From Marinilabilia salmonicolor (GTDB taxonomy: Bacteria; Bacteroidota; Bacteroidia; Bacteroidales; Marinilabiliaceae): DNA of 64,000 nucleotides. The stretch's first letter is position 1. Each line of letters starts with the position of its first letter. The position numbers were made by a program, and so were the translations under genes. The notes beneath the pieces are model-generated. The model saw only the letters and a program-made list of their open reading frames with translations. It had not been told where the DNA came from and did no database searches. The DNA is taken from the NCBI RefSeq assembly GCF_003003035.1, contig NZ_PVTS01000010.1:121616-185615 (forward strand). Direction: 5' to 3'. Of the stretch, positions 44,404-49,739 are shown in pieces.

Positions 44404-45117
44404 CTATCTCAAAACACTCAAAAAATCTTTAAAAACGCCACAAAAGCTTTGGTTGAATTGCTTACTGAAAGCATATTTCTGATTAACTTCAAGTTCAATA
44501 CCGGCATAATTTTCAGGGCCAAACTGGTTCCGTAAAGCAAAAACATGGCCGTCATTTTTACCCAGATAGGGATAATTCATCCGAATATGCAAACCTGGCA
44601 ACCGGGCAGCCATTTTTTTCTTCCACAATAAGGAAATCTCTTTCTCCAGACCAAAACCGGGATCATAGAGCAGCCCGACATCGGCATTTCGCTCCTTCCC
44701 CTCAAAAACCGGAGTAAAAGAGTGTACCGAAACATGCAAAACAAACCGTTTTTCATCTGTCAGAGATTTCAAATGAGCAGAAAACTTTTCCCTGAAAGGC
44801 TGGTAATACTGGTCTATAATAGTCCTTTTTTGAACTTCTTCCAGCAATCGGGTAAACTCAGAAAACAAAGAGCTTTTATTCAGTGAACGATTCAAGTCTA
44901 TCAACAGTCTGGTAGTTTCAGAAAACAGGGAAAAATCGACTCCTGCATCCCCCATTTCCATGAAAAGATCAAGAGCGCCCGGATCCCACCCCCTGTGAGA
45001 GGCAAGAATCCCGGAAGCATTCCTGAACAAACCGCTGAAAGCATCAGGAACAACATTTCCGCCATGCTCACAGGAAAGCACAACAGCAATTTTGCCGGGG
45101 AAAGCTCCTTTCACCAT
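44404..45117 (-). CDS. N-formylglutamate amidohydrolase-like enzyme
   Basis: A 237-residue zinc-amidohydrolase-like protein from ATG 45117; the frame extends to 45192 but would overlap the upstream gene by 56 bp. Family motifs are VVLSCEHGGNVVPD near the start, ASHRGWDPGALDL, RLLIDLNRS and the late IELEVNQKYA. Classic members release formate or trim N-acylglutamate. Here it ends a cluster with a GCS2 ligase and a RimK-like ligase, so hydrolysis of a glutamyl amide product or intermediate is a reasonable inference. Confidence 0.85.
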   Translation of the reverse strand: MVKGAFPGKIAVVLSCEHGGNVVPDAFSGLFRNASGILASHRGWDPGALDLFMEMGDAGVDFSLFSETTRLLIDLNRSLNKSSLFSEFTRLLEEVQKRTIIDQYYQPFREKFSAHLKSLTDEKRFVLHVSVHSFTPVFEGKERNADVGLLYDPGFGLEKEISLLWKKKMAARLPGLHIRMNYPYLGKNDGHVFALRNQFGPENYAGIELEVNQKYAFSKQFNQSFCGVFKDFLSVLR

Positions 45118-45136
45118 CTTCAGATCAATCCATCTT

Positions 45137-46372
45137 TTAAACACCAAACAACCTGTTTTCTCCCAGGCATCCGGCCAATTCACGATAAACACGACAAAAG
45201 TTGGTCATTGAGAAGTCTCCATCCATTGCGTTCAGGAGCCGTTGAGCCAACGATCCGGAATTCACAATTTCTGAGAAGACCCGGTAGTATTCAGGATCCA
45301 TCACATTCTGAAGAGAAGGTTTCAGAAAATGCCAAAGCTCTCCGGCTGTTATCCTTTTCTCATTACATCCCCAGAACTTCAGATATTCAGGATCATCAAT
45401 CAGGGTGCTTCCGGATTCACGTATGATTGCCTGAAAAATGGTTGCCAAACGGTTCTCGTGCCACTGTATTTGCTCCTCAAATGGTAAAAATGCACCCTCA
45501 ACAATCAGTTTCACCAATCCGGTAATGGCATCTACTATGGCCAGATCTGCCAAAGGAGCTTCCTGATTATCAACAACCCGGATTTCAATAGCCCCACGGT
45601 CAAACCGGGAAATAGCACCCCGGGAATTTAGAAAATGCTTATCCAACACATTTTCCTTATCAAATGGAGCAATATCTCTAATTATGGGGGCAAAAATCCT
45701 TTGAAAATAGGCCTCTTTGCTAAAAACCTGTTCGGGAACAATGACTCCGGCAATGGATGGTATTTTCTGCTGGTTGTGACGGTACGCCTCCAGCCTGCTG
45801 TCATGAAACCCGGTAAACCGACCATCCAGAAAAGGTGTGGAGGCAGCAATGGCAGAAATTATTGGCAATACCATCCGAATGGCAGCATGAAGGCGGCCAA
45901 ACTCCTCATCTCCTGAAAATGGCAAGTTGATATGCGTACTTTGAAGGTTGCTCCATCCATGCCCCCGGCAATCAAAAATTCTGTTGTAAAGGCTATAAAT
46001 CTCATTGTATTCATGTTGCCACAAATGCGTATCGGTGTGTGGATTCATCCACGGATGGGCTCCCCCGGGCATCAGTTGTGCATTAAAATCACTTAGGATA
46101 TTGTTAATTTCTGTAATATTGGTATGAAAATCGTGATGAAGGCCGCTGATACCGGCCACAGGCCCATTGGTCTTCAACTCAACAACATGATTTACCAGTT
46201 CATTGCTCCAGGCAACAGTCCCGTTTTCAAAATCGGACGTAATCTCTCCGGTGACCTTCTGTAACAGCTGATCACAAACAGGCATTACATTTAAGGTGTC
46301 CCGGTCCACAATCATGTATTCAAGCTCTACCCCGGTAACCTCAAAGAGATGAAAAGGATGATGTTTTGTCAT
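45137..46372 (-). CDS. GCS2-type carboxylate-amine ligase
   Basis: A 411-residue protein of the glutamate-cysteine ligase family 2 (YbdK-like) in the glutamine-synthetase fold. The N-terminal GVELEYMIVD and the later PGGAHPWMNPHTD, STHINLPFSGDEE and IEIRVVDNQEAPLAD match the metal- and substrate-binding strands. It should ligate an amine to the gamma-carboxylate of glutamate or a glutamate-like acid using ATP. It starts 12 bp downstream of the ATP-grasp gene. Confidence 0.88.
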   Translation of the reverse strand: MTKHHPFHLFEVTGVELEYMIVDRDTLNVMPVCDQLLQKVTGEITSDFENGTVAWSNELVNHVVELKTNGPVAGISGLHHDFHTNITEINNILSDFNAQLMPGGAHPWMNPHTDTHLWQHEYNEIYSLYNRIFDCRGHGWSNLQSTHINLPFSGDEEFGRLHAAIRMVLPIISAIAASTPFLDGRFTGFHDSRLEAYRHNQQKIPSIAGVIVPEQVFSKEAYFQRIFAPIIRDIAPFDKENVLDKHFLNSRGAISRFDRGAIEIRVVDNQEAPLADLAIVDAITGLVKLIVEGAFLPFEEQIQWHENRLATIFQAIIRESGSTLIDDPEYLKFWGCNEKRITAGELWHFLKPSLQNVMDPEYYRVFSEIVNSGSLAQRLLNAMDGDFSMTNFCRVYRELAGCLGENRLFGV

Positions 46373-46384
46373 TTCTCGGTTTTA

Positions 46385-47896
46385 TTAAAAGAGGGAATTC
46401 TTTAACTTTTTGTTTCTGCCTTTATCGTCCGGCAATTGTTTGAGAGCAGAGCCATTGATCTGTTCCAGTAAAAACAGCACAATCTTTCTGTAAATCTCCT
46501 CCTTCAACAATCCATCCTCCACTCCGGCATCGATGTTGGGATTGTCATTTATCTCAATGACAAAAGGTTTTCCATCCAGCTCTTTAATATCCACTCCGTA
46601 AAGACCATTTCCAATCAGTCTGGTTGCTTTCAATGCAATTTCGAGCACCTGTACGGGAGCATCTGCAGGTTCCAGAATGTCAAAATTGCCTTCTACTTCA
46701 GACTTCTTTTTGCTGTTCCAGTTGTAAATCTGCCAGTGTCCCGAAGCCATGTAATAACGACAAACGAACAAGACCTCATTGTTGAGAATCCCTACCCGCC
46801 AGTCATAGTCGGTAGGCATAAATTCCTGAGCAATCAATAAGTCAGACGCCTTCAGCATCTCCTTAACCTTATCTTTAAACTCCTCTTTACTGTTCACCTT
46901 TACAACTCCCTGAGAGAAAGAAGAATCAGGTAATTTCAGCACACATGGAAATCCGAGAGAATCAGCATCCCGCGGATTATCAGACAATAAAACCAAAGTT
47001 TTGGGAGTAGGTATTTTGGCATTGCGCAACAATTCGGTCAGATAAACTTTATTGGCACATTTCAAAATGGAATCGGGGGAATCCAGAACCGCCAATCCTT
47101 CACTCTGAGCTCGCCGGGCCATGCGGTATGTATGATGATTCACTGCAGTAGTTTCCCTGATAAGCAGTGCATCGAACTCCCCGATGCGATTGTAATCCTC
47201 TTTGGTAATAAACTCCACATAACAGCCAAGCTTTGAGGCAGCTTCCTCGAAAGCAGCCAGCGCTTTTTTATTAGAAGGAGGAGACGTTTCATCCGGATTG
47301 ACAAGAATGGCCAGATCGTAAATATACTTTCCGGGCCGGGCCAGATCATAGCGCTTTCGCTTAAAGTATTCGATGGCAAAATTCTCCAGATACGGGAGAT
47401 GATGCTCAGGAACTTCCTTAAAAGGAATGGTACGAATGGAAAAAACCTCCCATTTCCGTCCGTTATGCACAAAGCGGGCACGCAGGAATGGTGCCTGAAA
47501 CAACTTATGCAATTCTTTGGCCAGACGTGCATACTGAATAGATATATTCTGGCCGAAATAAATACTCAATACAAATTCCTGTGACCGGATTCTTTTCAAA
47601 CTCTTTTGTATCAAGTCGTCCAGATCATCCGAAACACTTTTTACCAGAGCCCTTTCCCGGAGATCCAGAATATTCTTAACCGAGGGAACTACCTTATGGC
47701 CTCTTGCTTCAGCCAGTAAAGAGACATAATACCCGCGGGTTTGATAGGCATAATCATTAGAGAGATTGAAAACTCTTACATTCCGGAGCTTAGAGAAGCC
47801 GGAATCACTCAAATATCTTCGGGGAGAGATTACATCCACTCCCGGAATATCCAAACCCCAATGCGAGGGTTTGTTGATTACAATAATCTTCTTCAC
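46385..47896 (-). CDS. RLAN-RimK ATP-grasp ligase
   Basis: A 503-residue protein. The first about 180 residues match the RimK-like ATP-grasp N-terminal (RLAN) domain (KKIIVINKPSHWGLDIPGVD, then VISPRRYL). A full ATP-grasp domain follows from about 275 (LDSPDSILKCANKVYLTELL, CVLKLPDSSFSQGVVKV, GVDIKELDGKPFVIEINDNP), with the metal-binding E-I-N-D-N. Such enzymes attach amino acids to a carboxylate, RimK itself adding glutamates. The start is GTG at 47896. First gene of a tight three-gene run with GCS2 and the amidohydrolase. Confidence 0.9.
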   Translation of the reverse strand: MKKIIVINKPSHWGLDIPGVDVISPRRYLSDSGFSKLRNVRVFNLSNDYAYQTRGYYVSLLAEARGHKVVPSVKNILDLRERALVKSVSDDLDDLIQKSLKRIRSQEFVLSIYFGQNISIQYARLAKELHKLFQAPFLRARFVHNGRKWEVFSIRTIPFKEVPEHHLPYLENFAIEYFKRKRYDLARPGKYIYDLAILVNPDETSPPSNKKALAAFEEAASKLGCYVEFITKEDYNRIGEFDALLIRETTAVNHHTYRMARRAQSEGLAVLDSPDSILKCANKVYLTELLRNAKIPTPKTLVLLSDNPRDADSLGFPCVLKLPDSSFSQGVVKVNSKEEFKDKVKEMLKASDLLIAQEFMPTDYDWRVGILNNEVLFVCRYYMASGHWQIYNWNSKKKSEVEGNFDILEPADAPVQVLEIALKATRLIGNGLYGVDIKELDGKPFVIEINDNPNIDAGVEDGLLKEEIYRKIVLFLLEQINGSALKQLPDDKGRNKKLKNSLF

Positions 47897-47916
47897 GTAA
47901 AAAATTAAGAATTAAA

Positions 47917-48012
47917 GAAACGAGCATGACAACGATTGCCACAAGAGAATATGTATAAGTTCTTACATGCGAGTTCCATCAGACCAATAACTTAGTTTAA
48001 TTATATACTGAT
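47917..48012 (-). repeat. R1 dispersed repeat, copy d
   Basis: GAAACGAGCATGACAACG, GAATATGTATAAGTTCTTAC and ATGCGAGTTCCATCAGACC match the 60.5-kb array in the same orientation. It sits between the C39-like peptidase and RLAN-RimK genes. Confidence 0.8.
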
Positions 48013-48018
48013 TAAACA

Positions 48019-48723
48019 CTAATCTTTGAACAGGACCAGCATATTGGCATCATACGTTACAATGCCCAGCAAAATGGAGTTTATCAGGCGATGAACATCC
48101 ACCTGGTAATAGTTATCTCCCGAAATGGGATTTTCTTTATAGGGATCGGCGATGAAGACCCGATCTTTGTCCATTCCACTGAGCACAACAAAATGCCCCA
48201 TTGGTTCACCTTTCAAATCATGATAAACAGACCGGTCCTTATGATCTGTATATTCCCGTTTGGATTTATAGAGATAAGTGGCACTCAGACCGGTTAATAC
48301 AGGTATGCCCTGATGCAGATAACGCTCAAAGATGCACCGGTTCAGATCTTCAAACACAATTTCTCCCCCCATCTGCAAATATTGCTGATAGGCCCGGGTT
48401 GCCTGCAAAAACTTCTTTCCGTGTTTATAGCGCAATTGAAGTTCCAGCCGTTCAATCAATTCATTGGAAGAAAAATCTTCCCAGGAAGGATCAAACATCT
48501 TCAGGTTATAGGAGTAAATCCTGGTTTTCAGGTCTCTTTTGAGGGCATCCATTCCCAGCATCACAGCCAATGTCCCCCCTTCAGGAAGATAATTCACACT
48601 CTTCACCACCTCATCCAGAGAGAGATCCTCTCCCAGGTAGCGATACACGGCATGCAGGCTTGTAGGTCCGCAGGTAGAATCGTCAGGCTGCGAAAGTATG
48701 CTGACAAAGTGCCTGTTTTTCAT
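48019..48723 (-). CDS. C39-like papain-fold peptidase
   Basis: A 234-residue cytoplasmic protein with the C39 triad: Q12/C18 in SQPDDSTCGPTSL, H176 in GHFVVLSG and D192 in ADPYKENP. The family cleaves leader peptides at glycine motifs or hydrolyses isopeptide/amide bonds. It lacks a transporter domain and signal. It is directly upstream of the RLAN-RimK, GCS2 and amidohydrolase genes, a neighbourhood described for amidoligase systems, so peptide processing within that pathway is inferred. Confidence 0.87.
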   Translation of the reverse strand: MKNRHFVSILSQPDDSTCGPTSLHAVYRYLGEDLSLDEVVKSVNYLPEGGTLAVMLGMDALKRDLKTRIYSYNLKMFDPSWEDFSSNELIERLELQLRYKHGKKFLQATRAYQQYLQMGGEIVFEDLNRCIFERYLHQGIPVLTGLSATYLYKSKREYTDHKDRSVYHDLKGEPMGHFVVLSGMDKDRVFIADPYKENPISGDNYYQVDVHRLINSILLGIVTYDANMLVLFKD

Positions 48724-48926: not shown

Positions 48927-48956
48927 AAACCCTCTCCGGAGAACCGAAGAGGGTTT
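48927..48956 (-). terminator. Terminator after the DUF4295 gene
   Basis: AAACCCTC pairs with GAGGGTTT around a loop, then TTTATGC on the minus strand. It ends the rpmB-rpmG operon. Confidence 0.75.
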
Positions 48957-48991: not shown

Positions 48992-49144
48992 TTACTTTTT
49001 AAAGTAGTCTTTTACCAAATCGTTTGGCACTACATCTTCCTGAAAAGAGTAAGATCCGGTTTTAGATGACTTCACCATTTTAATAACTTTGGTATGTCCT
49101 TTACCTGCACCTTTTTGTACTGATGCTACTGCTTTCTTAGCCAT
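48992..49144 (-). CDS. DUF4295-type small basic protein
   Basis: A 50-residue protein, MAKKAVASVQKGAGKG to a KDYFKK end, rich in lysine. It is the DUF4295 family that regularly follows rpmG in Bacteroidota and is probably a ribosome-associated accessory protein (inference). It begins 11 bp after the rpmG stop, so it belongs to the same operon. Confidence 0.88.
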   Translation of the reverse strand: MAKKAVASVQKGAGKGHTKVIKMVKSSKTGSYSFQEDVVPNDLVKDYFKK

Positions 49145-49155
49145 GATCTACTGTT

Positions 49156-49344
49156 TTATTTGATTTCACGATGAACAGTATAACGCTTCAAAACAGGGTT
49201 ATACTTTTTCAATTCAAGACGATCCGGGGTGTTCTTACGATTTTTCACACTGATATACCGTGAAGTCCCGGGCATTCCGCTCTCTTTGTGTTCGGTGCAT
49301 TCCAAAATCACCTGAACGCGGTTTCCTTTACCTTTCTTAGCCAT
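49156..49344 (-). CDS. rpmG: 50S ribosomal protein L33
   Basis: A 62-residue L33: the conserved core [15 protein letters not shown], then [20 protein letters not shown] and a VHREIK end. Only one cysteine remains, so it is the zinc-independent form. Middle gene of rpmB-rpmG-DUF4295, 17 bp after rpmB. Confidence 0.95.
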
Positions 49345-49361
49345 AATTTACCCTCCGTTTT

Positions 49362-49604
49362 TTAGTATTTTGAAATAAAACCATTCTTTTTGGCTGACTC
49401 CAGTGCAGCTTTTACGCCCACTTTATTGATCAGCCTAAGCCCTGAGGCAGATACCTTCAGGCTAACCCAACGGTCCTCTTCGGGTAAATAAAACTTCTTA
49501 TTGAAAAGGTTTGGATTGAACCTCCTTTTGGTTCTTCTCTTTGAGTGGGAAACGTTGTTTCCTACCTGAAAGCTTTTTCCTGTTATTTCACAAACTTTTG
49601 ACAT
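49362..49604 (-). CDS. rpmB: 50S ribosomal protein L28
   Basis: An 80-residue L28 with the normal N terminus [20 protein letters not shown] and [11 protein letters not shown] motif. First gene of the cluster. Confidence 0.96.
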
Positions 49605-49739
49605 TGCTCAACCGTTTTTCGATACGTTTTTCAAACAGAGCGCAAAATACGGCATTTTTCTTAAAACAAACAAACTTTTTCTTTTATATTTTTCACCAAT
49701 AGGGCCATGATGCAACAAACAGTAGGTTTTACTTCGTTA

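Follow-up and report, generated by a model that had tools for sequence, protein, structure and literature searches.

A C39 peptidase, RLAN-RimK, GCS2, and FGase gene cluster of Marinilabilia salmonicolor and a two-residue RLAN signature that tracks the partner of the ligase

GCS2 enzymes couple the side-chain carboxyl group of glutamate to an amine, GNATs transfer an acetyl group to amines, and RimK-like ATP-grasp enzymes attach an amino acid to a carboxyl group. GCS2 and ATP-grasp ligases form the enzyme pair of glutathione synthesis (GshA/GCS2, then GshB), the synthesis of N-acetylglutaminylglutamine amide (NAGGN; synthetase model TIGR03103) involves a GNAT and an ATP-grasp enzyme, and RimK adds residues to the C terminus of ribosomal protein S6. 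In addition, Iyer et al. reportedly predicted in 2009 RLAN-RimK amidoligase neighborhoods with peptidase, acetyltransferase, or GCS2 genes. Here we analyzed a 64,000-nucleotide (nt) stretch of the Marinilabilia salmonicolor genome (contig NZ_PVTS01000010.1, positions 121,616 to 185,615), referred to as the window, in which four adjacent minus-strand genes (positions 44404 to 48723) encode a C39-like peptidase, an RLAN-RimK ATP-grasp ligase, a GCS2-fold ligase, and an FGase-family hydrolase; these genes are predicted to form an operon. The linkage to a peptidase and a second amidoligase reported for the neighborhoods of 2009 is present here, and since such neighborhoods had by that account been predicted, the four-gene cluster itself is not claimed as new. 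The alternation of partners beside the ligase and a Ser111/Asn117 signature in its RLAN domain come from the present analysis. The 2009 study is cited in passages of PMC12239564, PMC4431377, and PMC10318531. A full-text literature search, which covered few subscription journals, returned no description of the four-gene set.

The families were as named in the initial annotation, since all four open reading frames (ORFs) were present and each exceeded its curated Pfam cut-off: C39_2 (40.6 bits) and C39 (36.2 bits), RLAN (153.1 versus 25 bits) and RimK (37.6 versus 21 bits), GCS2 (93.1 bits), and FGase (75.9 bits). Like glutathione biosynthesis, the cluster combines a GCS2-fold with an ATP-grasp ligase and would give a gamma-glutamyl-capped peptide, but its GCS2 is divergent, its ATP-grasp enzyme is of the RimK/LysX and not of the GshB type, and an RLAN domain, a C39 peptidase, and an FGase-family protein are added. 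The designation as a GCS2 ligase held for the Pfam family and for the fold, because the predicted model was a complete GCS2 fold that matched glutamate-cysteine ligases and the catalytic residues of this fold were conserved; however, the protein stayed below every curated glutamate-cysteine ligase or YbdK cut-off (TIGR02050, 59.9 versus 176.4; PRK13515, 53.3 versus 371; TIGR02048, 36.7 versus 249.05). Similarly, the description of the fourth protein as N-formylglutamate amidohydrolase-like was correct at the level of the FGase family, but the protein is not HutG, the N-formylglutamate deformylase (TIGR02017, 17.0 versus 278.75 bits). The cluster ligase shares its RimK-like ATP-grasp part with the RimK/RimB system of S6 glutamylation, which often occurs in the same genomes, but differs from canonical RimK in its score (TIGR00768, 74.4 versus 143.4) and in its partner genes, and the Rimk_N domain (PF18030) gave no Pfam match at E values up to 1. 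Unlike LysX/ArgX with LysW, the ligase scored 70.9 against a LysX cut-off of 275.6, and no widely recurrent small carrier ORF was present in the flanks. The C39 protein is unlike the C39 peptidases of bacteriocin exporters, as it has only 234 amino acids and no fused ABC exporter.

The partner of the RLAN-RimK ligase alternated between two unrelated amine-acylating enzymes. Among 138 distinct loci, in which a GNAT was counted when it matched a model built from four Bacteroidota sequences at E < 1e-10 and lay at most 2 kb from the ligase, 84 had a GCS2 partner, 39 a GNAT, none both, and 15 neither; the flank on one side of the ligase was shorter than 1.5 kb in 19 of 137 loci, where absences are weak. 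The partner changed at least three times on a quick tree (LG+G4, SH-aLRT support only), from which the duplicates L058, L220, and L234, as well as L057 (no RLAN-RimK match) and L225 (ligase cut off at 162 amino acids), had been left out. All three changes were forced by the branches starred in this tree, versus about 33 changes with shuffled labels. These shuffles show clustering only, so that the effective sample size is the three changes. Two loci counted as having neither partner carry a GNAT that fell outside the count: in L086, a possible fourth change given its place among GCS2 loci in the tree, it is located at 2.3 kb, and in L235 the adjacent GNAT comes from another subfamily.

The alternative partner was frequently part of a fusion protein. 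A related set of 100 genomes, including M. salmonicolor, contained 29 with RLAN, and 28 loci were taken from the others; in nine of these the ligase had 651 to 663 amino acids and an N-terminal GNAT domain (alignment of four, Pfam search of one, and model matches). RLAN was also found in 34 of the 143 genomes of a gammaproteobacterial sample (the class of a Nevskia genome, drawn around an RLAN-bearing genome). Among these 34 loci, 21 contained a fusion of GNAT with a DUF3335-type C39 peptidase (model matches; Pfam search of five), 2 a GNAT without that C39, 7 were of the four-gene type, and 4 had neither partner (two with C39; L235 with its GNAT of another subfamily). The passage on DUF3335 in PMC10318531, citing Iyer et al. 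2009, describes this domain as often fused to GNAT. The GNAT-RLAN-RimK fusion resembles NAGGN synthetase in having both kinds of domain in one chain; unlike it, the fusion in L044 did not have TIGR03103 among its 25 best NCBIfam matches. No M. salmonicolor protein passed the TIGR03103 cut-off of 569, and three GNAT proteins of the alternative loci matched this model at 18 to 31 bits.

The identity of the partner was reflected in two residues of the RLAN domain. Ser111 was present in all 84 ligases with a GCS2 partner and in none of the 39 with a GNAT, whereas the corresponding numbers for Asn117 were 83 and 0; both residues were changed throughout all three GNAT clades. A total of 66 ligase columns were at least 95% identical in both partner groups and none was conserved but different, which indicates that the core of the ligase does not differ between partners. 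Of the columns conserved only with GCS2, 15 of 31 were located in residues 1 to 190, compared with 14 of the 66 shared columns (Fisher p 0.009, uncorrected for kinship). The unlabelled loci agreed with this in part: among those with Ser and Asn, 8 of 11 kept C39, FGase, or both, and none of the 11 had the GNAT within 2 kb, whereas two of the four loci without the signature (L086 and L235) had a GNAT within 2.4 kb.

Two unrelated amine-acylating enzymes that alternate beside one carboxyl-extending ligase suggest a substrate that is capped and then extended, a logic shared with the synthesis of glutathione (gamma-glutamyl cap before the ATP-grasp step) and of NAGGN. Our preferred reading, held tentatively and with somewhat less than even confidence, is that the cluster makes a small capped peptide. 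The GCS2-fold ligase would likely use ATP to cap the amino group of the substrate with a gamma-glutamyl residue, and the GNAT of the alternative loci would acetylate this amine instead; RLAN-RimK would likely add an amino acid to the carboxyl end, also at the expense of ATP, the C39 peptidase would likely supply or trim the peptide, and the FGase-family hydrolase would likely take off the cap or recycle the product. GCS2 and GNAT would then do one job, the acylation of an amine, and we propose from the residue patterns that the RLAN domain recognizes the cap or the cap-bearing substrate and so reads which cap is present. It is possible, although we consider it rather unlikely, that these loci form a modular family over many phyla, with one ligase core, interchangeable gamma-glutamyl (GCS2) and acetyl (GNAT) caps, and cap recognition through residues 111 and 117 of the RLAN domain. 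In that case, the product would be a widespread class of metabolites not yet described. If the proposed function is correct, about one-tenth of the sampled Bacteroidota and one-quarter of one gammaproteobacterial sample make a metabolite or tag for which no structure or role was found in the literature searched. The alternating partners would make the orphan RLAN a specificity domain open to testing, and the two-residue signature would make it possible to tell from sequence which cap type the RLAN-RimK of a genome belongs to.

A number of observations weigh against the capped-peptide reading. With only three independent partner changes on the tree, a sign test lacks power (best attainable p 0.25), and L083 and L222, the other two loci without the signature, had no GNAT among the scanned neighbors, which were three ORFs each. 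The exclusion of the two partners is not strict, since two of the 84 GCS2 loci have an adjoining GNAT of another kind; in L115 it is on the opposite strand, whereas in L226 (L226:6842-8398) it is fused to a carbon-nitrogen hydrolase and lies on the same strand, adjoining the C39 gene of a four-gene locus. RimI, which acetylates a protein N terminus, is the family to which the GNATs come closest (TIGR01575, 46 to 72 bits versus a cut-off of 86.4), and this also fits protein modification. Furthermore, the DUF3335-type C39 was not seen in 18 of the 39 GNAT loci, a small-molecule product alone leaves the C39 peptidase unexplained, and RLAN co-occurs with RimB/RimK, a system that glutamylates protein tails.

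These last points lead to an alternative that we regard as possible but on the unlikely side, according to which the target is a protein or ribosomal peptide whose ends are modified by the cluster: C39 would cleave, GNAT or GCS2 would modify the new N terminus, RLAN-RimK would extend the C terminus, and the hydrolase would reverse the modification. In agreement with this, RimB (PF05618) was present in 33 of 43 RLAN genomes versus 74 of 351 others in the Bacteroidota sample without M. salmonicolor (raw p 7e-13), and RimK was found in all 107 RimB genomes of this sample. By family, RimB occurred in 7 of 11 RLAN-holding families versus 16 of all 56 (p 0.008); the counts of 11, 16, and 7 were read by hand, with the family of M. 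salmonicolor included and the weak RLAN matches G254 and G469 left out, and the 56 was taken from the family-code numbering. The association is uncorrected for kinship below the family level, and 10 of the 43 RLAN genomes, two of them weak RLAN matches, have neither RimB nor RimK. PF05618 was also present in 10 of 12 RLAN genomes picked from the 80 named loci described below, and the M. salmonicolor genome itself has one 480-amino-acid frame that matches both RimB and RimK (G000:C6:98795-99880). Three GNAT-RLAN-RimK genes adjoin a RimB-RimK fusion gene (e.g., L044:3539-4927), and the GNATs resemble RimI, but RimB/RimK adjoin none of the four-gene loci searched and the flank scans revealed no recurrent target gene.

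A paralogous pathway of the glutathione type, in which GCS2 forms gamma-glutamylcysteine, the ATP-grasp ligase adds a third residue, and the thiol is used with a papain-fold transpeptidase (compare phytochelatin synthase), appears improbable. The enzyme pair and the match of the GCS2 model to glutamate-cysteine ligases speak for it, as does the co-occurrence of cluster-type GCS2 with a high-scoring GCS2 presumed to be of the glutathione type (11 of 14 versus 9 of 85 among the 99 relatives; raw p 4e-7, uncorrected for kinship). However, the cluster GCS2 fails the cut-offs given above, and three of those 14 relatives have the cluster type without another GCS2. The M. salmonicolor genome already contains a separate GCS2 and ATP-grasp pair (L138), taken for the glutathione pathway, so that the cluster is not the only route of that kind in this genome. 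In addition, 39 loci have GNAT in place of GCS2, an exchange not easily reconciled with a thiol-precursor step. A system for ribosomally synthesized and post-translationally modified peptides (RiPPs), in which a ribosomal precursor would lose its leader to C39 and be decorated by the ligases, was already disfavored and seems very improbable. ATP-grasp enzymes modify graspetides, and C39 peptidases cleave the leaders of many RiPPs, as stated in part of PMC8939145, but the C39 protein is without an ABC transporter domain and no small ORF recurrent beyond near kin was found within 1.5 kb (147 flanks; linked ORFs only). A peptide-like product or a modified protein, the class of answer given in the initial annotation, remains the best for the four-gene cluster.

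The gene order is conserved well beyond M. salmonicolor. To the 28 loci of the relatives we added 80 named loci; being the 80 best matches to the window out of 591, they favor the four-gene type. The order C39, RLAN-RimK, GCS2, FGase in the same orientation was observed in 37 of the 80 named loci, one of which has its C39 split over two ORFs; of the 61 loci whose flanks were long enough on either side, 34 showed this order. C39-RLAN-GCS2 was found in another 21 of the 80, some at contig ends. Among the 28 loci of the relatives, 8 had all four genes in order (the contig end truncates FGase in one), 3 lacked only FGase, and the remainder comprised 3 with RLAN-RimK and GCS2, 1 RLAN-RimK and FGase, 12 RLAN-RimK without those genes, and 1 no match. 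Four-gene loci, many of them in metagenome bins, occur in Cytophagales, Pontibacter, Fibrobacter, Ignavibacteria, Omnitrophota, Spirochaetes, and Vicinamibacteraceae, as well as in Planctomycetes, Nitrospiraceae, Desulfobulbaceae, Thiobacillus, and other Gammaproteobacteria. The successive junctions in the named loci were tight (gap of at most 30 nt or overlap) in 58 of 64, 56 of 63, and 39 of 39 cases, counts in which overlaps are inflated because ORFs were taken from the first start codon. The pairwise distance matrices of the four proteins correlated with r values of 0.66 to 0.84 in 48 four-gene loci, and for each pair none of 1,000 permutations was as high. Because of this recurrence (37 of 80 and 8 of 28 loci) and the correlated matrices, the four-gene order is beyond chance, and the view that two ATP-dependent amide-forming folds travel together with a peptidase and an amidohydrolase was borne out. 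An RLAN match was obtained in 44 of 395 sampled Bacteroidota genomes, M. salmonicolor included, 43 of which were above the cut-off.

Not all neighbors belong to the system. The TonB receptor that adjoins the cluster in the window had been suggested to import or retrieve the product, but at E 1e-10 and half coverage it was near the cluster in only 6 of 142 loci, all from close relatives (L031, L034, L037, L041, L042, and L045), and in none of the other 102 relatives' or named loci nor in the 34 gammaproteobacterial loci; its position is local synteny, and it was discarded as a member. FGase was rejected as an obligatory member, since it was not found in the close relatives L031, L041, and L042, which keep the other three genes and in which the gap between GCS2 and the TonB receptor is too short to hold it. 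The three genes without FGase were also seen in 10 of the 61 well-flanked named loci, and of the 84 loci in the tree that have GCS2, 76 contain C39 and 54 FGase. Its absence next to the other three genes in some close relatives makes FGase look like an accessory member, and it is the most dispensable one. No fixed fifth gene emerged: the widest flanking families occurred in 8, 7, and 7 of the 80 named loci, and the members scanned were generic proteins, namely DnaJ, a histidine kinase, and amidotransferases that serve the synthesis of GMP or carbamoyl phosphate. Likewise, in the eight largest groups of small ORFs (20 to 100 amino acids) from 147 flanks, each at most 1.5 kb long, none recurred beyond near kin; the largest were confined to Pontibacter (3 to 5 loci) or to near-kin pairs such as Sabulibacter and Rufibacter. 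The lack of a linked precursor and of a fixed fifth gene favors free small substrates. RimB/RimK was not a regular neighbor either, being found in 3 of 108 loci (L030 to L137), all GNAT-RLAN-RimK, and in none of the 34 gammaproteobacterial loci.

An M20 peptidase near GNAT-C39/RLAN-RimK in L202, L208, L216, L224, and L228 (two Pfam-scanned) was considered as the gammaproteobacterial counterpart of the hydrolase and rejected. That of L202 is ArgE, acetylornithine deacetylase, above the NCBIfam cut-off, and synteny with arginine genes is the simpler reading; a link of these loci to N-acetylglutamate metabolism is possible. Members of the M14 zinc carboxypeptidase family neighbor GNAT-C39/RLAN-RimK in L203, L209, and L218 (one scanned). 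Two GNAT-C39 (DUF3335) proteins, L206:3189-5402 and L223:279-2618, have approximately 370 to 400 extra N-terminal residues that match no Pfam family. The fusion of GNAT with a carbon-nitrogen hydrolase in L226 may be an extra capping or amidation module. In L222:430-5753, RLAN-RimK is next to a class III aminotransferase, a radical SAM protein, and a DUF2807 protein, with no GCS2 or GNAT among the scanned neighbors, and is possibly another biosynthetic use of the ligase. In the Ignavibacteriales four-gene locus L079 (9705-10967), a single frame encodes FGase and, after it, a weak match to the HD domain. Finally, EgtC of ergothioneine synthesis is a class II glutamine amidotransferase that removes a gamma-glutamyl cap. 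A protein of this class (GATase_4, one scanned) was near the cluster in 4 of the 80 named loci (L089:10433-11491, with similar ORFs in L098, L102, and L107), and this neighbor could be a lead for gamma-glutamyl chemistry.

The features of the locus are compiled in Table 1. Gaps of 122 nt between C39 and RLAN-RimK, 12 nt between RLAN-RimK and GCS2, and 19 nt between GCS2 and FGase separate the genes, the last with the ATG start of FGase, which is probably at 45117 rather than at GTG 45192, since the alignment of relatives begins near there.

Table 1. Features of the four-gene cluster and its upstream region (window positions)
Feature	Positions	Strand	Remarks
FGase-family (PF05013) predicted metal-dependent amidohydrolase, 237 aa from ATG 45117	44404..45117	-	
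GCS2-fold carboxylate-amine ligase, 411 aa, divergent subfamily	45137..46372	-	
RLAN-RimK ATP-grasp ligase, 503 aa, GTG start	46385..47896	-	
RLAN domain, ligase residues 26-169	47390..47821	-	Pfam PF14401
Partner signature Ser111...Asn117	47546..47566 (codons 47564-47566, 47546-47548)	-	Tracks GCS2 vs GNAT partner
C39-like papain-fold cysteine peptidase, 234 aa	48019..48723	-	Gln12, Cys18, His177, Asp193
Terminator-like hairpin upstream of cluster	48927..48956	-	13-pair stem + T tail; consensus match only

The putative catalytic residues are well conserved. The four residues of the C39 peptidase listed in Table 1 were invariant in 51 of 51 aligned rows, as were K283, K321, E448, and N450 of the RLAN-RimK ligase, and E17, H18, H128, H132, R143, E208, and E210 of the FGase-family protein were invariant in 29 of 29. 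The only Pfam matches of the C39 protein above the cut-off were to peptidases, and its profile matched the C39 peptidase domains of ComA/PCAT in the PDB. In a structure comparison in which all matches listed fell on the RimK part of the ligase, this part matched LysX, ArgX, and RimK. The FGase-family protein had a PDB relative in 2odf (Atu2144; E 2.7e-17). The hairpin is one of 10 terminator-like sites in the window, versus 5.5 expected. Just upstream of the cluster, at positions 49000 to 49640, small genes resembling those of the ribosomal proteins L28 and L33 and of a DUF4295 protein were read from the sequence alone.

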